Source of the DNA: Halalkaliarchaeum sp. AArc-CO
GTDB lineage: Archaea; Halobacteriota; Halobacteria; Halobacteriales; Haloferacaceae
NCBI RefSeq assembly: GCF_024972735.1
Contig: NZ_CP087723.1
Location: 2,666,001-2,730,000 of the forward strand
Length of the DNA stretch: 64,000 nucleotides
Reading direction: 5' to 3'
Part shown: positions 6,278 through 64,000 of the stretch, piece by piece
Layout: each line of letters opens with the position of its first letter
Numbering within the stretch: the stretch's first letter is position 1
Notes under the pieces: generated by a model
The model's database searches: none
What the model was told of the DNA's origin: nothing
Seen by the model: the letters and a program-made list of their open reading frames with translations, nothing else
Made by a program: the position numbers and the translations under genes

Positions 6278-6333
6278 CTGGGGATCTCTTTTCGAGGACT
6301 TTTCACGACGTTACGGACGGAGCCGAGCGTGTG

Positions 6334-13281: not shown

Positions 13282-13397
13282 ACCCGGCCGGTCGGACGGG
13301 CCAGCCATCGCTTATCTGAACACGACCTCCGAGTACGTCTCCCGGTCTCGGAGGCCGTCGAGGAACCGAGATCTCGCGATCTCGTTCGAATACCGAG

Positions 13398-13943
13398 TCA
13401 CGGGAGTTCCTCGGTCATCGCAACGAGGTCCTCTTCGGTCCGCCAGCGGTACAATCGCCCGTGCCGGTCGAACAGTTCGAAGACGCCATCTTGCATCCAG
13501 CCGAACGGATGCTCCTCCTCGTACTCTCGTTTGAGGACGTGACTTTTGGAGAAATACTCGATCGTCCCGACCAGCAGACCCTGTTCGACGAGGAAGTCGC
13601 TCGGTTCCTTCTCGGCGACGCCGACGAGGTGCGTCACGACGTCGGCGATCAGGCAGAACTTCTGGATACTGTTGTCCCACTCGCCGCGGATGTCGACCAT
13701 CCGGAAGGCGTAGGCGTCCTGCCGGCGGTTGAGGCGATCGACCACTAGATTCAGCCGCCGGATCGGCTCCCGGTCGTAGTTCCCGAGGACGAAGTACGAT
13801 CGATCGTTCTCGTATACGGGCGTCAGTTCGCTCAGGGCGTGGAGGATCTCCTCGTTGTCCGCCAGCGAGATCTCCTCCTCGCCGAGCTGCTCTTTGGCGC
13901 TCGTGAGAACTTCCTCGGGGACGGGCGACTCCTCGTCGGACAT
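13398..13943 (-). CDS. Uncharacterised protein, possible TIR/nucleoside-deoxyribosyltransferase-like fold
   Basis: This 181-residue protein (ATG at 13943) has no family I recognise. The sequence SYFVLGNYD (strand), RRLNLVVDRLNRRQ (helix), YAFRMVDI (strand), NSIQKFCLIADVVTHLVGVAEKEPSDFLVEQGLLVG (helix-strand-helix, with an AD-x-V...S-x-L-x-E-x-G pattern) is what one sees in TIR-like and nucleoside-2-deoxyribosyltransferase-like Rossmann proteins. The C-terminal half (EYEEEHPFGWMQDGVFELFDRHGRLYRW) is of unknown type. It is divergent, 129 bp away, from a PadR-like regulator with dyads before it. The arrangement mirrors 11778-12907. A frame in the same phase extends upstream to 14534 but runs antisense through the regulator gene and is not credible. 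Confidence 0.6.
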   Translation of the reverse strand: MSDEESPVPEEVLTSAKEQLGEEEISLADNEEILHALSELTPVYENDRSYFVLGNYDREPIRRLNLVVDRLNRRQDAYAFRMVDIRGEWDNSIQKFCLIADVVTHLVGVAEKEPSDFLVEQGLLVGTIEYFSKSHVLKREYEEEHPFGWMQDGVFELFDRHGRLYRWRTEEDLVAMTEELP

Positions 13944-14008
13944 GCACTGCCGTTCTCGGAACCGCAAGATATGATTTATGGAGTAATTCACCGAGTTATT
14001 CGTCCTTC

Positions 14009-14043
14009 TGTTTACGTTAGCGTAATTTACCCGAGGGTAAACT
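14009..14043. promoter_or_regulatory. Two adjacent dyads, candidate operator of the PadR-like gene
   Basis: TTACG-TTAG-CGTAA (14012-14025) is followed at once by TTTACCC-GA-GGGTAAA (14026-14041), 32 bases before the regulator's ATG at 14073. Both are near-perfect inverted repeats of a size that suits a winged-helix dimer, so autoregulation by the PadR-like protein, and control of the divergent gene, is likely. Confidence 0.55.
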
Positions 14044-14072
14044 ACTTGACGTCGGGGGGTGTACCGTGGCGT

Positions 14073-14486
14073 ATGAGCACCGACGTGGGGACCGCCGAGG
14101 GGACGGAAACCCGCGAACTCGTCCACTTCGTGACCCAGCGGACGCGGTTCGCGCTCGTCAACAACATCCTCCAGCACCCCGAGCAGTTGCCCTCGATGTA
14201 CGAACTCGAGGAACTCAACCCCAGCGTGAGCGACGCCACCGTCTACAAGCACGTCCAGAAGCTGATCGACGCTGGCATCGTGAGGGAGGTCGCACTCGAC
14301 GACGACCAGCGCCGGCAGGGCTATCCCTGGAAGTTCTACGGACTCACGGAGGAGGGACTGGCGTTCCTCGAGGAACACAACCTGCTCGCCGCAGAGGAGA
14401 CCCTCCAGAGGATCTACGAGAGCATCTCCGACAAGCCCGAGAAAATGGTGAAATACGAGAACGCCCCCCGTCCCGAGGTCGAGTAA
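14073..14486 (+). CDS. PadR-like winged-helix transcriptional regulator
   Basis: This 137-residue protein has a winged-helix domain: ELVHFVTQRTRFALVNNILQHPEQLPSMYELEELNPSVSDATVYKHVQKLIDAGIVREV, followed by a wing with YPWKFYGLTEEGLAFLEEHNLL and a C-terminal helix, as in PadR/ArsR-type haloarchaeal regulators. The start at 14073 is preferred because two dyads end 31 bases before it. It is divergent from the uncharacterised gene at 13398-13943 and probably regulates it. The stop is followed at once by a DUF433 relic. Confidence 0.8.
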   Translation: MSTDVGTAEGTETRELVHFVTQRTRFALVNNILQHPEQLPSMYELEELNPSVSDATVYKHVQKLIDAGIVREVALDDDQRRQGYPWKFYGLTEEGLAFLEEHNLLAAEETLQRIYESISDKPEKMVKYENAPRPEVE

Positions 14487-34089: not shown

Positions 34090-34745
34090 CTACTCGCGGT
34101 CGAGACCCTCAACAACAACCTCGGGGGACCGGAGCAACTGGTGGACCCGATAGCTGCCCTCCCCGTGACCGCCACCGGTGTGTTCGCTTTCGGTGATGCC
34201 CAGAAACGCCTGTTCCTTGAGGAGACGCTGGACCCGATCGTAGCTCAACGGAGACGACTCCGTTTGACTGACGACCTTCTCGTAGGCGTCGTACACCTCC
34301 GCAGTGCGAAACCGCGTTTCCTCCGTCTTCTCGGTGAGCAACGCGAGCGAGCGAAGGACGTGTTTCACGTGTGGCGTCTGTCCGCTCACGAGTCGCTGGA
34401 ATCGGTTGATCTCCGCCTTTCGGAGGGCGGCGTCGACGTGACCTTCGGTGACGGTCGTGGCGCCTTCCTTTTCGGCGAGGCGCCCGGCCTCGTAGAGCAC
34501 GTCGATGGCCTTGCGTGCATCCCCGTGTTCACGGGCGGCAAGCGCCGCGGTCTTCGAGATGACGCCGTCCTCGAGAACTCCCTCGACGAAGGCGTCCCGG
34601 CGGTGATCGAGGATCGCCCGGAGCTGCGTGGCGTCGTAGGGGTCGAAGACGAGTTCGTTGTCCTGCAGGGACGAGTCGACACGTTCGCCGAGTCGATCAC
34701 GGTATTCGATCTTGTTGCTGATGCAGATCACACCGGTCATCAGTA
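34090..34745 (-). pseudogene. orc1/cdc6 gene, 5' half removed
   Basis: The frame starts in the sensor-1 region (GVICISNKIEYRDRLGERVDSSLQDNELVFDPYDATQLRAIL) and continues through the AAA+ lid (AALAAREHGDARKAIDVLYEAGRLAEKEG) and winged-helix domain to the normal end. The Walker A and B motifs are gone; the break lies at the edge of the ISH3 relic. What remains could bind DNA but not ATP. An ATG at 34740 exists but is fortuitous. Confidence 0.85.
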
Positions 34746-34759
34746 CCTCACAAAGCATC

Positions 34760-35117
34760 GCCTGTTAGCCTGACCTGAGCCACCTGCTCTGGTGTGATAA
34801 GTCATCTGTAACGGTCGAGCAACGCTGATCGAAGACGGAGCTGTCGCTGTCGGCGGCGCTCAGCCGCCGACGCGACAGCGTCGCCACTCGCGACTGCTGC
34901 CACGACCGATGGACCGTTACCGGACGAACCGGTCGTCGAGCCGCTGGTTCGCTGAAACAACTCTGTACACACTAAGTGCTGTCCAGGCTGCCCACAGTAC
35001 CATCTCACAGAACTTTGTGAACGGCCATCTCCAGAGACGGCACCCCCGCGCCGGGGCGCCGCCAGGTTCCACACTCTTCCCGAGGAGACGCTGCCCCTAA
35101 CGCGATGTGATCGACTA
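34760..35117 (-). mobile_element. ISH3 deletion derivative
   Basis: The part 34838-35060 matches the last 70 codons of the ISH3 transposase at 37064-38209 (MVRRAAWT...VSANQRLDDRFV) and the flanking hairpin CGCTGTCGGCGGCGCT. It is joined at CGCCGCCAGGTTCCAC to the ISH3 5' end, finishing with the inverted repeat CGATGTGATCGACT (35103-35116). About 1 kb from the middle is missing. The left terminal repeat is not visible. Confidence 0.75.
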
Positions 35118-36878: not shown

Positions 36879-38256
36879 CAGTCGATCACATCGACACCTC
36901 TCAAACTTCTCGGGAAGAGCTTGAATCTGCGTTTTTGATGCGTGGTTAGTGCTCAGAATGACACGGGCGGTAAGCTCAGGCGACAAGGAGTCGCTGTCGG
37001 CGGCGCTCCGCCGCCGACGCGACAGTGTCGCCACTCACGACCGCTGCCCGGATCGGTGGACAGCTACCGGAAGAACCGGTCGTCGAGTGGTTGATTCGCT
37101 GGGACAGCCCTGCGCACACCCAGTACTGTCCAAGCGGCCCGCCGCACCATCTCACAAAACTCCGTGAACGGCCATCTCCAGAGGCGGCGCCCCCCGCGGC
37201 GGGGCGCCGCCACGTACCTCCAATGCAGATACCGCCAGCTGTTCTGGAGCAGCAGGCTCACCACAAACATCAACAGTCGCAATCCAGCGTCCCGGGAACT
37301 AGTGAGAGCGAGGCTCTGCTTGGCTAATCGGTAGCTCGACTCGATGCCGAAACGCTTGCTGTAGTGCTCTCGAGCATCTCGTGGCGTGTCGATGAACGGC
37401 GCGTCAGCGGCGTAGCCGTGACGCGCCACTCCGTGTTCATCGTACCGCTCCTGCTGGTACACACAATCGATGAACACGGGGAACGTTACCTTGCCGGCGA
37501 GATCGTGCTCGATCTCGCGGCTCCAACCTCTGCTGAGTTCGTCTTGAATCGTCTCGCCCCACTTGACGATCGGCATCGCATAGGCGTAGTTGTGCGCGTA
37601 CAGCAGTCCGAGACAGGTGCTGTTGTAGAAGCCGCGGTCAAGATAGACGGCCTTGACGCTGAGGTCAAGACCGTCGAGGAGTTCGAGAAACTCAGCGAGG
37701 ACATCGCTGGTGGTGTCGCCAGCGACAAGCTGGCGCACCGCCAGCGTGTATCGCTTGTTGCGTACCCGTGCGTAGAGTGTCGCGTACGCGTGAAATGCAG
37801 TTGTTCCTCGTTTCGCTTGCGAGAAGTACAGCGCCTCTGTCTCGTCTTCGTCACCGTAGTAGGGATCGAGGTGGAGGTCTGCGCAGACCTCCACCGGTCG
37901 ATCCGGAAGTGTCGCAAGCGCATCTCGTTGCAGAAGCGTGTCCCCAACCGCCTCAACCGAGTCAAGCTCGAACTGCTCGGTGAGATGTCCCCGGACAGTG
38001 TTGGCGTGTGGCGAGTCGTCGGTCGTTTCGCAGACGTGGTTGATTGAGGTCCCGCCGGCGCTGGCGCCGGCGAGGACCTCGTACAACGTCTCTGTCGTGA
38101 CCTCGACATCCTAACCGAGATCTATCGCAAGCTCTTCGTCGAGGCTGTTGACGACAAAATTAAGCAGGTACTCTTCCTCTATCTCGCTGTCTGCTTCGGT
38201 AGGTTCCACACTCTTCCCAAGCAGACACTTTCACTCAAACCCGATGTGATCGACTG
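36879..38256 (-). mobile_element. ISH3-family insertion sequence (1378 bp) with 5-bp target duplication
   Basis: Terminal repeats CAGTCGATCACATCG (36879-36893) and its complement (38242-38256) enclose the element; ACACT flanks it on both sides (36874-36878 and 38257-38261). A hairpin GCTGTCGGCGGCGCTCCGCC lies at 36992-37011, inside the left end. Confidence 0.9.
37064..38209 (-). pseudogene. ISH3-family transposase with an in-frame stop
   Basis: From about 38209 the frame VEPTEADSEIEEEYLLNF, then VVNSLDEELAIDLG, meets TAG at about 38114, then continues DVEVTTETLYEVLAGASAGGTSINHVC through the complete DDE core (VEVCADLHLDPYYGDEDET; VKAVYLDRGFYN; KRFGIESSYRLAKQ) to the normal end PANQPLDDRFFR. 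A product from an internal start (ATG at 38086) would lack the N-terminal DNA-binding part. So the transposase is probably inactive although the element's ends are intact. Confidence 0.85.
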
Positions 38257-43266: not shown

Positions 43267-43620
43267 TCACAACTCTTCGAGCGTTCGATACGAGCTGAAC
43301 CGGATCTCGTCGGGGTCCTCGGAGAGTACCGGCGCAAGCAGTTCGTCCTCCCATTCGAGCCACGGCTCCGGATACTCCGCTTTGGGCTTTGGATCATCAA
43401 CGGGCCCCCACAGCTGTCGCCACGCCGCCCGACTCTCGTACTGCCAGACAGCAGTATACTGATCGACACGAGCGCCTTTGATGCCCTTCAGGAACCAGTA
43501 CTCACTCAGCCCCGGAAGATCGAACAGGTTTCGCGACTCCGCCTCGGCGACGGCCGCCTCGAACGCTGCCGGCGTTGCGTCGTCGGCCAGTTCGTATTCG
43601 TGGATGCTGACGATCGTCAT
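43267..43620 (-). CDS. Small protein, possibly dimeric alpha/beta-barrel
   Basis: A 117-residue protein, overlapping the end of cdc6 by four bases and on the same strand. TIVSIHEYELADDATPAAFEAAVAEAESRNLFDLPGLSEYWFLKGIKGARVDQYTAVWQYES has the strand-helix-strand-strand order of ABM/NIPSNAP-type dimeric barrel proteins. I recognise no exact family. Its place after cdc6 is probably chance rather than function. Confidence 0.65.
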   Translation of the reverse strand: MTIVSIHEYELADDATPAAFEAAVAEAESRNLFDLPGLSEYWFLKGIKGARVDQYTAVWQYESRAAWRQLWGPVDDPKPKAEYPEPWLEWEDELLAPVLSEDPDEIRFSSYRTLEEL

Positions 43621-44918
43621 CCTTCGAGATCCTCGGGGTTCGTCCCGAACGCCGAGTTGACGCAGTTGCGAACCACCTCCGGATCCTTCAACAGGCGGTG
43701 GAGTTTGTACGTTCCCGCCCCGCGACCGCCGCTTGTCACGTGGGCCTCCGTGATGTCCAGGAACGCCTGTTCGTCGAGGAGCTCCCGAACGCGGTCGAGT
43801 TTCAGCGCCTCGATCCCCTCGTTCGCACAGACGAGCCGGTACACGTCGAACACTTCGGTCGTCCGGAACTCCTCGCTGTCGCGGTGTTCGGTCAGGGAGG
43901 CGAGCGCCAGCAGGACGTGCTTGGCGTGGGGCGTCTGCGTCGATAGCAACTCCAGCAGCCGGTCGGCCTCCGCACGCTTCTTGGCGGCCTCGAGATGTGA
44001 CTCCCGGACCATCTCGTCGGCACGTTGTTCGGCGATCTCGCCGGCGTTTTTGAGGATTCGGATCGCCTTCCGGGCGTCGCCGTGTTCCCGGGCGGCGAGG
44101 GCGGCCGCCTTCGGAATCACCTCCTCGGCGAGGGCGCCCTCCCGGAACGCGTCCTCGCGGGCGTACATGATGTCTCGAAGCTGATCGGCGTCGTACGGGG
44201 GAAAGATGAGTTCCTCGCTGCCCAGCGAGGAGCGAACGCGCTGGTTGAGTTCTTTCCCCCAGTCGATCTTGTTGGAGATGCCGATGATCCCGACGTCGGT
44301 GTCGACCTTGCCCGCCTCTCGCGCCCGGGAGAGCTGCATCAGAATGTTGTCGCGGTTGCCGTCGGCGTCGGGTTGAAGCCGATCGATCTCGTCGAGGATC
44401 ACGATCGCGCCGTCGAAGTGCGCCTCGAGCAGCTCCCAGGTGTACGTGTAGTAGTGGGATCGTCCGAGCCCCTTCAGTGGGATCCGTTCGGGGGACCCGG
44501 CTGCGGTGTTCAGCGCACGAGCCACGGCGCAGGCGGCCTGCGCTTCCGTCGAGTGTTGCGCGCAGTCGACGTACGCGACGGCGAGACGCCGACCGCGTCG
44601 GTCCGCCTCCGCCCGGGCACGCTCCGAGACGTGCCGGGACACCAGCGATTTGCCGGTCCCGGTCTTACCGTACACGAGCACCGGCGTCGGCGCGGCGCCG
44701 GAAACCACCGGACGAATGTAGCCCGCGAGATCCTGAATCTCTTCGTCCCGCCCGACGATGCGATCCGAATCGGGAACCGTTCCCACCTCCAGCAGCGTCC
44801 GGTTCCTGAACAGCGTCGTGGTTTCGTCGTCGTCCGGGGCAAAGAGCGGATCCGGACCGGACGCAACCGAGTCGTTCGTTCCGGACCCCGTCTCACCGGG
44901 GCGTGGATCGTCGGTCAC
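43617..44918 (-). CDS. Orc1/Cdc6-family replication initiator
   Basis: This 433-residue AAA+ ATPase binds origin boxes and loads the MCM helicase. Walker A GKTGTGKS is at 84-91, Walker B ILDEID at 174-179, sensor 1 ISNK at 214-217, the lid with AALAAREHGDARKAIRIL at about 272-290, and the winged-helix domain from about 320 (TTEVFDVYRLVC...LLDEQAFLDITEAHVTSGGRGAGTYKLH). All key residues are present. It reads away from an origin-like region that starts at its 5' end. TATAAAATAG at 44940-44949 (plus strand) holds its TATA box. Confidence 0.93.
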   Translation of the reverse strand: MTDDPRPGETGSGTNDSVASGPDPLFAPDDDETTTLFRNRTLLEVGTVPDSDRIVGRDEEIQDLAGYIRPVVSGAAPTPVLVYGKTGTGKSLVSRHVSERARAEADRRGRRLAVAYVDCAQHSTEAQAACAVARALNTAAGSPERIPLKGLGRSHYYTYTWELLEAHFDGAIVILDEIDRLQPDADGNRDNILMQLSRAREAGKVDTDVGIIGISNKIDWGKELNQRVRSSLGSEELIFPPYDADQLRDIMYAREDAFREGALAEEVIPKAAALAAREHGDARKAIRILKNAGEIAEQRADEMVRESHLEAAKKRAEADRLLELLSTQTPHAKHVLLALASLTEHRDSEEFRTTEVFDVYRLVCANEGIEALKLDRVRELLDEQAFLDITEAHVTSGGRGAGTYKLHRLLKDPEVVRNCVNSAFGTNPEDLEG

Positions 44919-45460
44919 GTTCGGACCTTTCTGGGGATAGTATAAAATAGTACCTAACCCGAGTCAAAGTGTAAATTCGATATAGGCGCCATTTTATTTG
45001 TATAATCCATTTATTTTCTACAAGTCGACTACAGACACACACCTCAGTCAAACTGTATTCTCCGAGCAGTCCAGTCAGCAATATTCGGAGATTGGGTGTT
45101 CGTAAATAAAGTGTATACAATCTCCGAAGGAGCGAATCAATTCAACCACCGTCGGGCAGAGATCTTCGACGGCAGAGAGTGGTAGCTGATTCAAAATTGG
45201 TGGACCATGGACGGGACACACACCCCAGTCCAACTGTAATCTCCGAACAGTGTTGAGGGGAGATCATGGGTTAAGGAACCCAGGACACACCCCAGTCCAA
45301 CTGAAAACGGATGCTCGAAAACGCTCGAAGAACTCGACACCGTACCTAGGCCGCCTGCAGTATATTGATTCAGCACGATTTCGTCTTTAGACGTCGAACG
45401 ACCCTCCTCCTGCCGAACAGTTACACTTGGACTGGGGTGTGTCTCCGGGGAAGACGTGGA
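44919..45460. other. Candidate replication origin with four ORB-like boxes
   Basis: Next to orc1/cdc6 lie three direct boxes, GACACACACCTCAGTCAAAC (45034-45053), GACACACACCCCAGTCCAAC (45215-45234) and GACACACCCCAGTCCAACTG (45284-45303), and one inverted, ACACTTGGACTGGGGTGTGT (45423-45442). Boxes 1 and 2 share a longer tail with CTGTAATCTCCGAACAGT. An AT-rich stretch (44935-45025) between the gene and box 1 and the region between boxes 3 and 4 are the candidate unwinding sites. This layout is the standard haloarchaeal one. Confidence 0.85.
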
Positions 45461-45681
45461 AACACGACCGGGAACTATTGAGCGATCACAGCGTCTACAG
45501 CCACCTCAACGAACTCGTCATGCTCGGCGTCCTCGACCGACACGACCTCAACCAGGGGCCATCAGGCGGTATCTACTAGGAGTTTGGACTGGCAGTAAAA
45601 CTTGACACAGTACTCTCCGTGTTTGAGGACAACCACCCGCCCGACGGAATCGACATAGAGGCCCTGCGCGTTCGCCTCTGA
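45442..45681 (+). pseudogene. orc1/cdc6 3' remnant with an internal stop
   Basis: Beginning within box 4, the frame KTWKHDRELLSDHSVYSHLNELVMLGVLDRHD, then LNQGPSGGIY-stop-EFGLAVKLDTVLSVFEDNH and IDIEALRVRL with a stop at 45681, is the C-terminal winged helix of a second Orc1/Cdc6 (GPSGGIYYEF is the usual form; TAT has become TAG at about 45576). The rest of the gene is absent. It shows that the origin once had an initiator gene on both sides, or was rejoined. Confidence 0.85.
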
Positions 45682-46087
45682 GGAACGATCGAAAGTTCTC
45701 AGAAAGAATGAAACGGTGGTGTGTGCTCGTGCGTCTGACCTCGGAGGATCGTTCGAAGCCATCGCGTAGCGGTGAGAACGATTGAAATGTTGGTGTGGGT
45801 GTGAATCTTGCCAGTGCAGAACACTCGTATTCGGCTGCGATATCGAAGTAGTATTTCGAATTCAGTCCAACCATCTCAGGTAAAAACGATTGAAGCGAAG
45901 TTGCGGTGGATCCAGTAGTGAGCGCGTTCTTTCTTAGTCATAGCGTCACCTACAGGACTTTTTTGCGCATCCGATCGATGATTTCTACATAGAGTTCCGT
46001 CCGAAAGTCTACCGTCAATGTGGCCTCCTCTATTCGAGCGGCGGCTGGATAATGGCTTAAAAACCTAAAAATAGGGACTAACTCTTG
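45682..46087. other. 406-bp gap with two ORB-like motifs
   Basis: GAATGAAACGGTGGTGTGTGC (45706-45726) and ATTGAAATGTTGGTGTGGGT (45781-45800) belong to a second, dispersed motif family seen also at 48.6-48.9, 53.7, 54.2-54.3 and 57.7 kb. The rest is AT-rich and without a gene. Confidence 0.45.
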
Positions 46088-46591
46088 TTAGACGTTAGCT
46101 TCTACTGTATTTGGCACTGTAAATTCACGAAGGACGGATGACCGATCACCAGATTCCCACGTAAGGCTCACGGTTGCTCCCTCTGAGACAAGGGGATCGC
46201 CGTTTTCAACCCCACTATCGTGGTCCACAGTAATTCCCACAACGTTGCCTGCACTTATGGTATCACCTGCGCCATTGTCCACGTCGAATTCATCCACATT
46301 ATCTGAGTTGTCATTATTTGCAACACTCACTCCGAGCGCATCAAACTCAACTGAATCCCCTCCCTGATGAGTGAATTCCATGAATCGTTCTTCATCATCC
46401 ACGCTCTCATAGTCAGCAACGAGTTCTCCTTCGAACTGCGAATTCGGCGCCGTGTCCCCTACCTGATCACCGAGACCCAACACGAATGTGCCAATAACAG
46501 CCGCCAAGATTACTGTTATGGCAACCATCAATATGACGCCGATAACGGGCGATACAGCATCTTTATCTTCGGCAAACGTTTTCAATTGCAT
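46088..46591 (-). CDS. Archaeal type IV pilin, N-terminal-domain protein
   Basis: This 167-residue pilin-like protein begins [50 protein letters not shown]. The prepilin signal and hydrophobic assembly helix are almost identical to the other two pilins here, while the exposed part ([21 protein letters not shown]...[19 protein letters not shown]) differs. It would be cut by PibD and join an adhesion pilus. Confidence 0.88.
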
Positions 46592-47352: not shown

Positions 47353-47817
47353 TTAATCCGAGTACTCAACGTCTATCGATTTAAGAATCGATGAGGAATC
47401 ACCTGACTGCCAGACAAGTCGAATTGACGCTTCAGCCTCGCCACTAGTCTGATCAGTCAAGTCAGCGGTAAAGCTATCCCCTGCTGATAACGACTCCGGA
47501 GCTGGGCCTGTCAGCCCTGTCACATCATCATGGTCTTCTACCGTCACAACATCCGTATCGGATGACACAACAGTAAGCGTGTCGGCGTCAACACTGTCGC
47601 CACCATTGTGCGTGAACGTCACTTCCCCAGGGTCAACAGGTTCATCAGCATTTGCATCCCAATTCGCATTCGGCGCTGTGTCCCCGACCTGGTCACCCAG
47701 ACCGAGCACGAACGTCCCGATGACGGCTGCGAGAATCACCGTAATCGCAACCATCAGGATAACGCCGATGACGGGCGATACTGCCTCTCTGTCCTCGAAA
47801 AACGCTTTCAATTTCAT
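47353..47817 (-). CDS. Archaeal type IV pilin, N-terminal-domain protein
   Basis: A 154-residue pilin beginning [50 protein letters not shown], then a variable acidic domain ending [23 protein letters not shown]. The end motif W-x-SGD-x-SS-[IV]-L is shared by all three pilins of the window, so they are paralogues with variable middles, consistent with pili of different adhesive properties. Confidence 0.88.
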
Positions 47818-48259: not shown

Positions 48260-48373
48260 GGGACTGAAAGGGGCGAGTCGCTGGAGGAAGACGGCTGACG
48301 GAAGCACCGCAGCGAACGACGTGAGCGAGGAGCGCACCGAAGCCCTCGACTCCAGCGACTCGGGGCTTTCGAG
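48260..48373 (+). repeat. H1 structured repeat, copy 4 (second stem subtype)
   Basis: GGGACTGAAAGGGG, stem arm CGAGTCGCTGGAG (48274-48286), apical part with GCACCGCAGCGAAC and GTGAGCGAGGAGCGCA, stem arm CTCCAGCGACTCG (48350-48362), GGGCTTTCGAG. The 13-bp stem is perfect. Compared with copies 1-3 the outer and apical parts are conserved but both stem arms are exchanged together. Confidence 0.88.
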
Positions 48374-48665
48374 GTCGTCACCGATCTGTTCCACCTCGTT
48401 CAAAAACGCACACCAACGCGATCCCCAGCAGAATCAGTCACTATTGGCCCTCGGACAGCGTCGGCCCGACTGAATCCGTCACAAGGACTGCTCGCATGCC
48501 CGTTCGACCGACAACGCCTGTCCGACCGGATTCCGACTCCATTCGAAGACGACCTCACCACTGACCCAACCGACCGACTGGAGCCTGCCTGACCGTGAAC
48601 CGTCTGCGGCCGATTGCGACGTCGTCGTACTCGGGTGGTTTCACTCGAAATCGTGGTGTGTCTCT
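48260..48665 (+). repeat. Long direct repeat, copy 1 (about 406 bp)
   Basis: Beginning with H1 copy 4 and ending with TTTCACTCGAAATCGTGGTG and TGTCTC, this block recurs at 53839-54244 with only about a dozen differences. It includes no gene. Confidence 0.85.
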
Positions 48666-49916: not shown

Positions 49917-52900
49917 TCACTCCCGGTCTTCGTCCGAAAGCCGCTTCCTCAACAGGTACGCCGCGCCACCGACTCCCGCGATCCCCGCCCCGATACCGAA
50001 TCCGGGCGATTCCGTGTCCGTCTCCGTGTCCTCGTTCTCGATCCTCTCGTCGTCGTCAGTCGCCTCTCCGTCATCCTCGTCATCTGCGTGTCCTCCATTC
50101 TCGTCGATCACCCCATCGTCCGACTCGTCGCCTGTCACGTCCCCGGACGTGCGTGAGAGCAGACCCTGGAGTGCTACGAGGTTGACGACGAGCGCCCACT
50201 CGTCTGATCCGAACTCGACTTGGCTGGCGAGGAGATACCCCGCGCCGACCACAAACCCTTCGCCGTGTGAAACTGCCACACCCACGGGTGCGCCGGCCGC
50301 ATCCTCGTCGTCCGGTTCCCGATCGTGGACCGGTCCATGAGTGCGGTTCAACCACGCCCCGGTGTCTTCCGGCAGACGGGCCCACACGTGGGCGTCGCCG
50401 ATATCCGTCAGAACTGTCCGGGGTCGAGAACCGGTGAACATCCACGTCAGCCTCGAGGGCTCGATCGCCGCCTCGATGCGTTCCCCTTCGGGACGACCGA
50501 TTTCGGCACGATCGAAGTTAAACCCGTAAACGGACGTCAACTCGCTAATGTCTTCGGGCATACCCGCGAAACCTTCGACCACGAGTCCACCCCCGTTTGT
50601 GACGAACGACTCGACGGCATCCAGCTCCGTTTCGGTAAATTCGTATAGGGCGTCTCCGAGTGCAGGCGGCACGAACAACAGATCCAGTTCCTCGAGCGTT
50701 TCGTGATTCCACTCGGGTACTGGCCGCACCTCGTACTCCGGGAATGCGTCCGCGAACGCTGCGAACGATCCCCCACCGTCGTCCCACTCGAAATCGGGAT
50801 GTGATGGCTGGTTGTGGGCCTGATCGATCCCGATCACCGGCGTCCGGTAAGCCCGGTCTGCCCAGTCGATCGCCGCCGTCGCACGCTCCTTTGCGACGTC
50901 GTACTGTTCGAACGCGAAGGCCTGTTCTGCGTTGTGCAGTGTCGCGGATGCAGCCTCCAGCAACTCCTCTCGATCGTCCGTCACTGCCGTCTCGACGGCC
51001 TCCCGAGCTTCATTGATCGTCGTCCGCGCCGCCGCCTCGTCCGTGGCGGGTCGCAAGGCAGCGTCCGACTCCGCGAAGACAAGGAATCCCCACACGTCCA
51101 GCGTCGGGACCGTCACCGATACCTCGTCTGCATCCCCGTCGATTTCGAGGGCGGTCGACCCGTCGACCGTGTAGTAAGACGCCGCAGCCGGCGAGAACGG
51201 CAGGTCACGAACGGTCACCTTGACGGCTTCGCGGGATCGCATCGCGTCGGTGTCCCGGTCGTAGGCGTAGTTGAGGAGATGGACGACGACGAATTCGGCG
51301 GTGTCGCTGTCGGCACCACTCCCATCGTCGTCAGCTGCACCGGTCTCGCGTTCTGTCCCATCGCTGACCGCCATCCGAGTGAGACTGATTCGGGCGTCAC
51401 TATCGAGTTCCACGCCCGGATCGAACGCTGCCAACTGGTCCCGAACTGCCTGTGCACCCACCCCGTTTCCGTCGGCTGACACGTCATCGTCGACGACCGT
51501 CGCGTTCGAGGCCGATTCGAGGGTTGCCTGTAGATCCTCGCGGGGTTCAAACGCGGCACTCCGGGTGGGTGCCCCACCGGCGACGAGTACAGACGTGCCG
51601 GCCGCAAGTGCCTCCTCGAGTGCCGCCACGTGATCGTCCGACACACACTCAACACTCGGCAGCACCACCTGGTCGTACGTCTGGAGCGCCGCGGTCTGCT
51701 CTGGCGCCGCCCACAACTCCGGATCGTCGAGGATGACGACATCGAAGGGCAGTTGTGCCTCTCGGAGGAGCCGACCGGTGCCGTGGACCGCGTTTCGGTG
51801 ACTACGGGGAGTTCCCCATTCCGGGGCGTCCTCCCACAGCAACGTCGGTAGCGAGACGACGATCGCCGTCCGATGCTGCTCTCGACCGTTGCTCAGGAAC
51901 CGACGATGGGATCGGAGGAAATCGACGAACCGATGGAGACGATCCCCGATAGTGCCGTCTTCGCGCATCCAGGTGTCGATCCGCCAGTCGTAGGACTCGT
52001 CCGGGCCGCTGGTTAACTGGATCTGGTGGACTGCGCCGTGAGCGTACGACTGGGCGACGTGAAACTCGAGCAGCGTCGGGTAATACTCGGTGCTGTCGAA
52101 TCCCTCGGCCTCGGGTTGTTCGTGCCAAATTGTGTGAAACACTCTGACTGCCTTCTCGAACCGCCCGGACGCTCGCGCGATCTTGATCGAGACGTCCGAC
52201 AGCTCTTCGGGCGGAATCGCAGGTGAGGTCTCCAGCAGGATCTCATCGAAGACGTCGCTCAGATACACCGACGCCGGTCGCAAAACGTGGCTCTGTAATC
52301 CGAACTGTACTCCCAGATTCGTCGAACCTGCCGCCTCGATCTCGGCTGGCAAGTCTTCTCTGGCGTCCTCGAAAAACCGATCGAAGAGTCGCTTGGCGGT
52401 TCGGTGCTGGAGCTTTCGCCGTTCGCGGTACACGGGATCGACGGCGGGAACCTCGACATCGTCGGGCATCAGGTCGTTCGTCTGGAGATACGATCGCATA
52501 TCGAATCCGTCGACATCGTCGATGCCATACTCCGCGAGAGTACTGTCCGGGAGTGACTCGAGGTACTCCCGGAACGTGACGTCCGCCCAGAGAGAGCAGT
52601 CGAGGCCCGAGCTAGTACCGAACGAGATGTGATCGACCCAGAGCTGTGTGAACCCCATTTGGGAGATCTCCCGTCCCCGCTGGGTGAAGTACTTCAGTGT
52701 GCCCTCCGCGAATACTGACGGAAAAATCGCGTCTGGATCGTCGCCCGGCCCGGCGGGTGGCTTCCAGGGCTCTCCATCGATCCCCACGCCTGCAAGTTCT
52801 GCAACACTCGTGACCGGTGTGCCGTCGGGATGGTACCACCGCTCGTCGTCGGGCTGGTCGTCGTACCAGTCGTCGACGGTTTCGACGGGCGTGATTGGAT

Positions 52901-53336
52901 GAATCCCACCCGATGCCGAGGACCCGTAGCGATGAGTGAGCATTCCGCCTGCTCGTGTACGCCTGCCGACCCCACCGTCGAACGGTGGCAAGCGTCCGAA
53001 CAGATGCTGGTTGGAGATCATATCCGGATCGAGACGTAACACCTCCTCGATCATGACGTCCCGATCAGCGTCCTGCCATTCGCCCATATAGACGGGCGCA
53101 GCACCGTACGCGAGTAGGAACGGCTCGGTGACGTTGTCCGGGACGTCCATGGCAAACTGGGATCCAGGACCTGAGCCAACCTCAGACCGGGCTTCCCCTC
53201 CAGATTCAGCCGCATCCTCAAGGAATGGAACCGTCGATCGGTCTTCTGCGCCGAGATCAGCATCGAATGGCATCCAGCCCAACATCGGAACTGAACCAAT
53301 CCCTGTTAGCATCGAGCGCCGGGTGGGGTTACGCAT
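49917..53336 (-). CDS. Large Tat-exported, PGF-CTERM-like surface protein with glycoside-hydrolase-like domain
   Basis: A 1139-residue protein (ATG at 53336). The N-terminus MRNPTRRSMLTGIGSVPMLGW is a twin-arginine-type signal. About 60-500 looks like a TIM-barrel hydrolase (FLLAYGAAPVYMGEW; FTQLWVDHISFGTSSGLDC; FHTIWHEQPEAEGFDSTEYY), as in GH42-like or alpha-fucosidase-like proteins; 500-640 and 880-1080 look like two GATase/DUF4350-type Rossmann domains (FDVVILDDPELW...TSVLVAGGAP; GLVVEGFAGMPEDIS). The C-terminus has an acidic linker, then SPGFGIGAGIAGVGGAAYLLRKR, a PGF-CTERM-type sorting tail, a substrate of archaeosortase. It probably acts on polysaccharide at the cell surface; enzyme specificity is not clear. 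Confidence 0.75.
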   Translation of the reverse strand: MRNPTRRSMLTGIGSVPMLGWMPFDADLGAEDRSTVPFLEDAAESGGEARSEVGSGPGSQFAMDVPDNVTEPFLLAYGAAPVYMGEWQDADRDVMIEEVLRLDPDMISNQHLFGRLPPFDGGVGRRTRAGGMLTHRYGSSASGGIHPITPVETVDDWYDDQPDDERWYHPDGTPVTSVAELAGVGIDGEPWKPPAGPGDDPDAIFPSVFAEGTLKYFTQRGREISQMGFTQLWVDHISFGTSSGLDCSLWADVTFREYLESLPDSTLAEYGIDDVDGFDMRSYLQTNDLMPDDVEVPAVDPVYRERRKLQHRTAKRLFDRFFEDAREDLPAEIEAAGSTNLGVQFGLQSHVLRPASVYLSDVFDEILLETSPAIPPEELSDVSIKIARASGRFEKAVRVFHTIWHEQPEAEGFDSTEYYPTLLEFHVAQSYAHGAVHQIQLTSGPDESYDWRIDTWMREDGTIGDRLHRFVDFLRSHRRFLSNGREQHRTAIVVSLPTLLWEDAPEWGTPRSHRNAVHGTGRLLREAQLPFDVVILDDPELWAAPEQTAALQTYDQVVLPSVECVSDDHVAALEEALAAGTSVLVAGGAPTRSAAFEPREDLQATLESASNATVVDDDVSADGNGVGAQAVRDQLAAFDPGVELDSDARISLTRMAVSDGTERETGAADDDGSGADSDTAEFVVVHLLNYAYDRDTDAMRSREAVKVTVRDLPFSPAAASYYTVDGSTALEIDGDADEVSVTVPTLDVWGFLVFAESDAALRPATDEAAARTTINEAREAVETAVTDDREELLEAASATLHNAEQAFAFEQYDVAKERATAAIDWADRAYRTPVIGIDQAHNQPSHPDFEWDDGGGSFAAFADAFPEYEVRPVPEWNHETLEELDLLFVPPALGDALYEFTETELDAVESFVTNGGGLVVEGFAGMPEDISELTSVYGFNFDRAEIGRPEGERIEAAIEPSRLTWMFTGSRPRTVLTDIGDAHVWARLPEDTGAWLNRTHGPVHDREPDDEDAAGAPVGVAVSHGEGFVVGAGYLLASQVEFGSDEWALVVNLVALQGLLSRTSGDVTGDESDDGVIDENGGHADDEDDGEATDDDERIENEDTETDTESPGFGIGAGIAGVGGAAYLLRKRLSDEDRE

Positions 53337-53838
53337 ACCACAAAACAACACGCCAACCCGTAATTATCGTTTTCGTGGGCACGATATCAACCTGCCATGA
53401 TCTCAAAGTCGTGCCGACTATCAATCGCTCCCAAAACCCCTACACGAAGCCGATTCGATTTCCTCGCTTTACCGATCAGATTCCGATGAGATCGCGGTTT
53501 TCGCGGGGGGACCACCCCTCGTTTCGTCTGTTCTGGATCAACGTCCGCGATCGACCTCGACAGTCCACCTCGGTGCTGTACCGCCAGGAACGAACCACGC
53601 AGCCGAGACGATTCGAAGACGCCCCCTCGCGATGCCACGCGACTTCCGACGCCTCACGACTCGAGATCGTCGGGGGTCGTCCCGAGAACGATCGACACGG
53701 TGGTGTGTGTGGCGGGGCTACCGGGAGGGCACTCGGGAAGAAGCCACCGAGAATACAACAGAACCACAGAACGATTCGAAAGCGCTCGCTATATTGGGGT
53801 CACAACTGACGGCAACCGGCCGATCAGACAGCGGGGTT
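53337..53838. other. 502-bp gap with fragments of dispersed repeats
   Basis: AAGCCGATTCGATTTCCTCG (53446-53465) and ACCCCTCGTTTCGTCTGTTC (53514-53533) recur near 61127 and 61191; they belong to the GT4-relic neighbourhood. GATCGACACGGTGGTGTGTG (53690-53709) is an ORB-like motif. CAACTGACGGCAACCGGCCG (53803-53822) is shared with the left flank of H1 copy 6. No gene. Confidence 0.5.
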
Positions 53839-53952
53839 GGGACTGAAAGGGGCGAGTCGCTGGAGGAAGACGGCTGACGGAAGCACCGCAGCGAACGGAG
53901 TGAGCGAGGAGCGCACCGAAGCCCTCGACTCCAGCGACTCGGGGCTTTCGAG
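53839..53952 (+). repeat. H1 structured repeat, copy 5
   Basis: Identical in form to copy 4, with the same perfect CGAGTCGCTGGAG/CTCCAGCGACTCG stem; the apical part reads GCGAACGGAGTGAGCGAGG. It begins the second long direct repeat. Confidence 0.88.
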
Positions 53953-54244
53953 GTCGTCACCGATCTGTTCCACGTCGTCCAAAAACGCACACCAACGCGA
54001 TCCCCCGCAGAATCAGTCACTATTGGCCCTCGGACAGCGTCGGCCCGACTGAATCCCTTATAAAGACTGCTCGCATGCCCGTTCGACCGACAACGCCTGT
54101 CCGACCGGATTCCGACTCCATTCGAAGTCGACCTCACCACTGACCCAGCCGACCGACTGGAGCCTGCCTGACCGTGAACCGTCTGCGGCCGGTTGCGACG
54201 TCATCGTACTCGGGTGGTTTCACTCGAAATCGTGGTGTGTCTCA
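53839..54244 (+). repeat. Long direct repeat, copy 2 (about 406 bp)
   Basis: Matches 48260-48665. It ends in the ORB-like TTTCACTCGAAATCGTGGTG (54219-54238). A further motif of the same kind, ACGATTGAAACGCTGGTGTG (54301-54320), follows. Confidence 0.85.
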
Positions 54245-54416
54245 CCAGGCCGACCAATCGAACGTCTCGAACGAAACAGGCCGACCGAAGATCTCCAAGA
54301 ACGATTGAAACGCTGGTGTGGGGTAGCGTAACTGTTACAAAATCCAGTATATTCAGTAGTACCCAGTCGTCTTTCCGAGCGAAATATTTAATTATATGTA
54401 TACCATATAGTAATGT

Positions 54417-57700: not shown

Positions 57701-57849
57701 CGGACCGACCGGAGATCTCCAAGAACGATCGAAACGGAGGTGCGGGTGTCTCCCCTCCTGGAGCGAGGGATTATCTGTGTACCAATAACTGCATGTGGAT
57801 TTCAGGGGGGCAAAACTAATAGTATTGGATGTGATACCGATAACTAGGG
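57700..57849. other. Promoter region of the AbiE-like pair
   Basis: GAACGATCGAAACGGAGGTG (57724-57743) is an ORB-like motif. AAAACTAATAGTATTGGATG (57813-57832) probably holds the TATA box of the next operon. Confidence 0.4.
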
Positions 57850-63900: not shown

Positions 63901-64000
63901 GGGACTGAAAGGGGCGAGTCGCTGGAGGAAGACGGCTGACGGAAACCGCAGCGAACGACGTGAGCGAGGAGCGCACCGAAGCCCTCGACTCCAGCGACTC
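63901..64000 (+). repeat. H1 structured repeat, copy 6 (runs off the window)
   Basis: GGGACTGAAAGGGGCGAGTC with the second stem subtype, apical part ACCGCAGCGAACGACGTG, ending at CTCCAGCGACTC at the window edge. Three bases of the GCACC segment are missing relative to copies 4 and 5. Confidence 0.85.

Follow-up and report, generated by a model that had tools for sequence, protein, structure and literature searches.

The locus lies within a window of 64,000 bp, the whole stretch of DNA analysed here, which represents positions 2666001-2730000 of the 3,012,260-bp chromosome of Halalkaliarchaeum sp. AArc-CO; with a second contig of 166,871 bp the host genome amounts to 3.18 Mb. The putative origin is located at 2.711 Mb of the chromosome, about 300 kb before oriC1, and an oriC1-type orc1 gene is found at chromosome position ~0. 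An intact initiator gene, orc-A (43617-44918, minus strand, GTG start), encodes an Orc1/Cdc6 protein of 433 amino acids (TIGR02928, 394 bits) with an AAA+ domain, a lid (Pfam Cdc6_lid, 69 bits) and a C-terminal winged helix (Cdc6_C, 65 bits), including Walker A (GKTGTGKS) and Walker B (VILDEID) motifs. An earlier annotation made from the letters alone (the sequence-only reading) had placed an intact orc1/cdc6 gene beside the origin boxes, which is borne out.

Orc-A shares 39% identity over about 265 residues with the Orc1 of the same genome's oriC1, and the boxes of the two differ. At the threshold of Wu et al. (2012), by which an Orc is at least 80% identical to the members of its oriC family, Orc-A thus falls outside the oriC1 family. 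Outside its genus, the best identity of Orc-A was 74% (391 genomes of the class and 72,556 plasmids), which makes membership in the oriCa or oriCb families improbable at the same threshold. The same chromosome additionally carries a very divergent Orc1-like protein (G000:C2:2037014-2037904; at most about 30% identity to the others) without A-boxes.

When the window was searched with the box consensus ACACACCCCAGTCCAACTG, allowing up to 3 mismatches, four matches were obtained, all within 45037-45442 (three direct, one inverted), and none in 100 dinucleotide shuffles, so the four origin-box-like repeats of the sequence-only reading are real. The rest of the genome contained only two matches, far away and with 3 mismatches each, and no copy with 2 or fewer mismatches was present outside the locus in the whole 3.18 Mb. 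Including a weak copy, five A-boxes were annotated: A-box 1 (weak, CCTAACCCGAGTCAAAGTGTAA; 44953-44974, plus strand), A-box 2 (45037-45058, plus; consensus at 45037-45055 with 2 mismatches), A-box 3 (45218-45239, plus; 45218-45236, no mismatch), A-box 4 (45285-45306, plus; 45285-45303, no mismatch), and the inverted, distal A-box 5 (45421-45442, minus; 45424-45442, 1 mismatch). All lie upstream of orc-A. Their G-run is short (on the reverse strand TTACAGTTGGACTGGGGTGTGT, GGGG followed by TGTGT), and longer in the boxes of related Orcs, e.g. GAGGGGGGTGG and GAGGGGTGGG. A-box 1 adjoins the TATA-like element of orc-A (44939-44947, minus strand) on its upstream side and is a candidate autoregulatory site of the gene. 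Between A-boxes 1 and 2, a stretch at 44940-45059 reaches 65-70% A+T versus about 36% in the chromosome, and may represent the unwinding element; from the last direct box to the inverted box, A+T is only about 50%. The locus thus combines what is expected of an orc1/cdc6-adjacent origin, i.e. an intact AAA+ and winged-helix initiator beside repeated ORB-like elements (four, or five with the weak one), one of them an inverted copy.

GC skew, which had been suggested as a check for an origin at 45.2 kb, gave no signal at 2.711 Mb or at the oriC1 control (contiguous over 2.41-3.01 Mb, sampled elsewhere). As the control was likewise flat, GC skew is uninformative in this genome and does not decide the matter.

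Remnants of two further initiators and a second box family

Beyond the inverted box, on the plus strand, a stub of a second initiator gene (Orc-B; 45466-45678) reads away from the A-boxes and contains a TAG codon at 45577-45579. The sequence-only reading was right about this direction and the nonsense codon; an almost full-length gene interrupted by a single nonsense codon is ruled out, as only the last ~70 codons remain, corresponding to half a winged-helix domain (PF09079, 22.8-24.4 bits). The inverted box had also been said to overlap the start of the remnant. This is true only if GTG at 45439 is the start codon, and the homology begins at 45466, 24 nt beyond the box. The box as a part of the remnant is likewise ruled out, because Halohasta has polB, not cdc6, beyond its corresponding box and because the lineage of the remnant has another box type.

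In another genome (G005), an intact Orc of 411 aa has a C-terminus with 63% identity to the stub. Plasmid Orcs of the pNMAG02 type share 44-46% identity with the stub, and BLAST placed it nearest to these and far from Orc-A. In the phylogenetic tree, Orc-A and the full-length pNMAG02-type lineages fall apart. The sister species (genome G001, same genus) has an even smaller Orc-B stub, and no intact close Orc-B was found in either of the two genomes. For the stub, differences at codon positions 1, 2 and 3 number 5, 11 and 15, a pattern compatible with decay.

The pNMAG02-type plasmid Orcs have boxes of their own (ACACCACC-NN-TTCAAWCGTT), and a scan with this type unexpectedly revealed a pair of matches immediately beyond the stub and a further three as far as 57.7 kb, all on the minus strand. 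The sequence-only reading had overlooked this second box family. B-box 1 (ACACCACCGTTTCATTCTTT; 45703-45722) lies 21 nt past the stop codon of the stub and is matched perfectly at the corresponding position of the sister genome (3021097); B-box 2 (45777-45796) follows. The dispersed B-boxes 3 (53687-53706), 4 (54300-54319, about 255-275 nt upstream of a tnpB) and 5 (57724-57743, which shares a 56-nt stretch with B-box 4) are far from any Orc-B gene and near perfect in the sister. The local form ACACCACCGTTTCAATCGTT had five matches in the whole genome, which share one strand and lie no more than 12 kb apart, and none of 30 permuted patterns had a match in the 200 kb around them. This form was derived from the window and the sister after the first scan, so the window count is not an independent test; the confinement within the genome and the search of other genomes are. 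In the sister, four B-boxes with 0, 0, 1 and 1 mismatches were found at 3013138-3023726, and the spread is about 10-12 kb in both species.

A scan of 391 genomes for the B-box identified three more. In G005, four B-boxes are upstream of the intact 411-aa Orc and one is just past its stop codon on the strand opposite to the gene, the same geometry as at the stub in the window. In G340, a partial Orc that matches the stub at 47% has B-boxes on either side, and in G295 the stretch read around the boxes held no Orc relative. In further relatives, box type changes together with Orc lineage. Taken together, the lineage of the stub, the B-boxes and the intact Orc of G005 indicate that the locus consists of two origin modules placed back to back, of which one is intact and the other dead. 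That the B-boxes would still be bound by another Orc, as sites of titration, incompatibility or regulation, is improbable, although their near-perfect state in the sister despite its smaller stub, and their spread in both species, would fit this; if true, the orphan array would control the intact origin or interfere with incoming Orc-B plasmids.

The third cdc6 gene (34090-34758, minus strand) is 5′-truncated and retains the lid and winged helix without Walker motifs, as the sequence-only reading had it in describing a cdc6 devoid of its ATPase half. Its truncated 5′-end adjoins a 205-nt stretch (34843-35047, minus strand) that matches, at 83%, the 3′-terminal region of the ISH3 transposase at 37064-38086. 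The fragment represents a deep lineage of the Orc-A clade. In comparison to its sister counterpart, changes are mostly at third positions (dN/dS 0.11), with a dS of 0.68 that exceeds the median of the species pair (0.38); separate histories are thereby indicated, and the third-position bias may predate the truncation. Lid and winged-helix Cdc6 fragments without the ATPase part were also observed near intact origins in several haloarchaea (the window, 34090-34758; L021, 10269-10541; L082, 13386-13830; L157, 9597-10115).

Three initiator genes within the 12-kb region and a single survivor, as originally described, are therefore present. The phylogeny, which had been proposed as a check, and BLAST together placed the three Cdc6 proteins in three different lineages, which rules out that they are duplicates of one another.

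The hypervariable island, conservation and relatives of the module

The same module is present in the sister species at 3.020 Mb of 3.313 Mb, at the same chromosomal place. The backbone shared by the two species ends at 6332 and restarts at about 80040 (window coordinates, past the window end), leaving a 74-kb island that is hypervariable, rich in transposons and in part occupied by polysaccharide genes, with a GC content of 0.41-0.47 in part of its length. Its genes include glycosyltransferases, a flippase, an O-antigen ligase, a sulfatase, FkbM methyltransferases and transposons. The main piece common to the islands of both species is the 2.2-kb block of orc and boxes, in addition to a few smaller shared pieces.

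Near-identical repeats (97-98%) at 48260-48664, 53839-54243 and 63901-64000 suggest recent duplications in the island. Two paralogous genes for archaeal type IV pilins (46088-46591 and 47353-47817) adjoin the origin, with homologues elsewhere in the sister's island. The region 49917-53351 encodes a protein of 1144 amino acids with a PGF-CTERM motif and almost no other Pfam match, possibly a surface protein.

All five A-boxes are kept in the sister, with 106 of 110 positions identical (96%; 22/22, 21/22, 19/22, 22/22 and 22/22 for A-boxes 1 to 5), versus 275 of 423 (65%) between the boxes and elsewhere in the same intergenic region (Fisher p 4e-13). Orc-A is 97% identical between the species (dN 0.014, dS 0.23, dN/dS 0.06), and its dN is below that of all 36 sampled backbone ORFs of more than 300 codons (median 0.0525, minimum 0.019). 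Orc-A and the A-boxes are thus under strong purifying selection, and the surviving origin is maintained, not decaying. The suggestion that the origin "has since been reduced" accordingly applies to the second module, not to the first. The conservation could in part be due to autoregulation of orc-A instead of use of the origin.

Relatives of Orc-A with at least about 60% identity were found in only 7 of 170 genomes of the family, and the A-box in few. In Halohasta litorea, a 15-kb scaffold encodes an Orc of 73% identity, with four boxes upstream, an inverted distal box and four more boxes downstream, and a gene for family-B DNA polymerase beside the boxes. A 323-kb plasmid of Halomontanus rarus (NZ_CP119799.1) encodes an Orc of 74% identity whose boxes are of the same type, arranged as a distal inverted box, a box array with 45-bp spacing and, at the same promoter-proximal place as A-box 1, its variant CCCGAGTCAAAGTGTAAA. 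At the origin of this plasmid (L082, 11605-11806), five tandem boxes repeat in an iteron-like fashion with a 45-bp period. In G045, of the Halohasta group, orphan A-boxes without an adjoining Orc lie beside a truncated polB (L080, 9526-10347), which seems to be an origin that has lost its initiator.

Only two gene pairs are common to the island and the plasmid or contig relatives. Two genes at 13397-14476, for an HTH regulator and an unknown protein, correspond to the neighbours of Orc-A in Halohasta litorea (82% nucleotide identity) and occur on 92 plasmid records, and the neighbours of the Halomontanus Orc recur at the right edge of the island. The window contained no tRNA gene, and no integrase was present among the window ORFs looked at, nor was a complete plasmid backbone found. 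The homologous module on NZ_CP119799.1 supports a plasmid source for the Orc-A module, as judged from relatives, not from junctions. A viral source for Orc-A was rejected: no viral contig relative was found, and the only match was a partial one of 31% to one haloarchaeal virus.

Interpretation of the locus

The locus is best explained, at a probability of roughly 0.78, as a plasmid-type orc1/cdc6-adjacent origin that became fixed in the island, with a dead second module of Orc-B type back to back. We infer that the origin reached the chromosome by plasmid integration and was then fixed in the hypervariable island. By analogy with characterised origins, and with the cognate cdc6-origin pairs of Haloarcula hispanica (PMC3936714), Orc-A would most likely bind the A-boxes, which represent the haloarchaeal ORB in its local form and are arranged as four boxes opposite a single inverted distal one, melt the AT-rich DNA at 44940-45059 and then load the MCM helicase, and the origin would fire. 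Orc-A bound to the promoter-proximal A-box 1 may limit its own synthesis. The unrelated module of Orc-B and B-boxes would once have stood back to back with that of Orc-A, until a deletion presumably took its upstream boxes and about 85% of the gene, leaving the C-terminal stub and the downstream B-boxes.

A serious competitor, which we consider possible but less probable, is a dormant origin in which Orc-A and boxes are intact and silent in the wild type, kept as a backup or by autoregulation. In haloarchaea, an origin may be dormant even where its ORBs are intact, and in Haloferax mediterranei recently acquired, intact orc-adjacent origins stayed so until the main origins were removed (PMC4595724). 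Conservation of boxes and gene fits dormancy equally well; however, the module has survived as the principal element common to islands whose other content was replaced, and it is unusually strongly constrained, which suggests regular use without proving it. That Orc-A and the boxes are only a regulatory pair, i.e. a transcription factor and its operators with no role in replication, is unlikely. An A-box does abut the TATA-like element of orc-A, and Orc proteins that regulate transcription and are not initiators are known (Orc1-2; PMC9738581). Against this reading stand the array, whose inverted distal box is 500 nt away from the gene, the recurrence of its layout on a plasmid and beside a family-B DNA polymerase gene in Halohasta, and a box type that tracks the Orc type, as it does in both predicted and characterised origins (PMC3528665).

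It is similarly doubtful that one plasmid brought all three initiators in a single integration and that the origin is now a relic. From the integration of a plasmid or megaplasmid as first proposed, the plasmid source is supported, given the 74% identical Orc and the same boxes, and the presence of three cdc6 genes in 12 kb would agree with a common arrival. Against a single event stand the three lineages of the Cdc6 proteins, the further intact Orcs of other lineages in the sister's island and the dS of the 34-kb fragment, which indicates separate histories, and the search for an integrase or a complete backbone noted above lends it no support; the purifying selection on Orc-A and its boxes argues against a relic. 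The reading of a maintained plasmid-type origin beside a dismantled second module is thus preferred. The locus would then be a snapshot of origin gain and loss in archaeal chromosomes, where one of two plasmid-type modules was kept by very strong selection amid changing surroundings and the other was taken apart, its binding sites remaining. The box type could be assigned to an initiator lineage from sequence alone. As the search with orphan boxes led to their intact initiator in a different genus, the pairing rule of initiator and box becomes directly testable.

Comparison with known origins

The kind of locus is already known: strain-specific origins that are gained, lost and disrupted, in variable regions together with polysaccharide genes and transposases, were described by Wu et al. 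(2012) and in the follow-up of 2014. On the same chromosome, oriC1-orc1 has in common with the locus the Orc1/Cdc6 family and the initiator role, with the difference in identity and boxes given above. In H. hispanica oriC2-cdc6E, an ORB-rich region is located downstream of the gene (PMC3936714); boxes likewise flank both sides in the Halohasta relative of Orc-A and at the Orc-B locus of G005, whereas Orc-A in the window has upstream boxes only. The disrupted Cdc6H of the same species is accompanied by a separate winged-helix fragment, Cdc6H_C (PMC4441112), similarly a C-terminal piece left from an initiator, but the fragment in the window contains a stop codon and is found at the intact origin of another lineage.

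A close counterpart, Haloarcula VR1 with oriC3-cdc6D, is an orc/cdc6-adjacent origin in a chromosomal variable region (PMC3528665, PMC4441112). Common to both are an origin and initiator in a divergent region at the same chromosomal place, with polysaccharide genes, transposases and disrupted neighbours, as well as the link between ORB sequence and Orc lineage. In VR1 the origin comes and goes, whereas here it is the best-conserved part of the variable region, which is new, and it stands back to back with what is left of another, different origin module. The presence of two families of boxes at a single initiator gene has been reported (PMC3528665); new at this locus is that the second family is assignable to a dead initiator of which the stub is still present.
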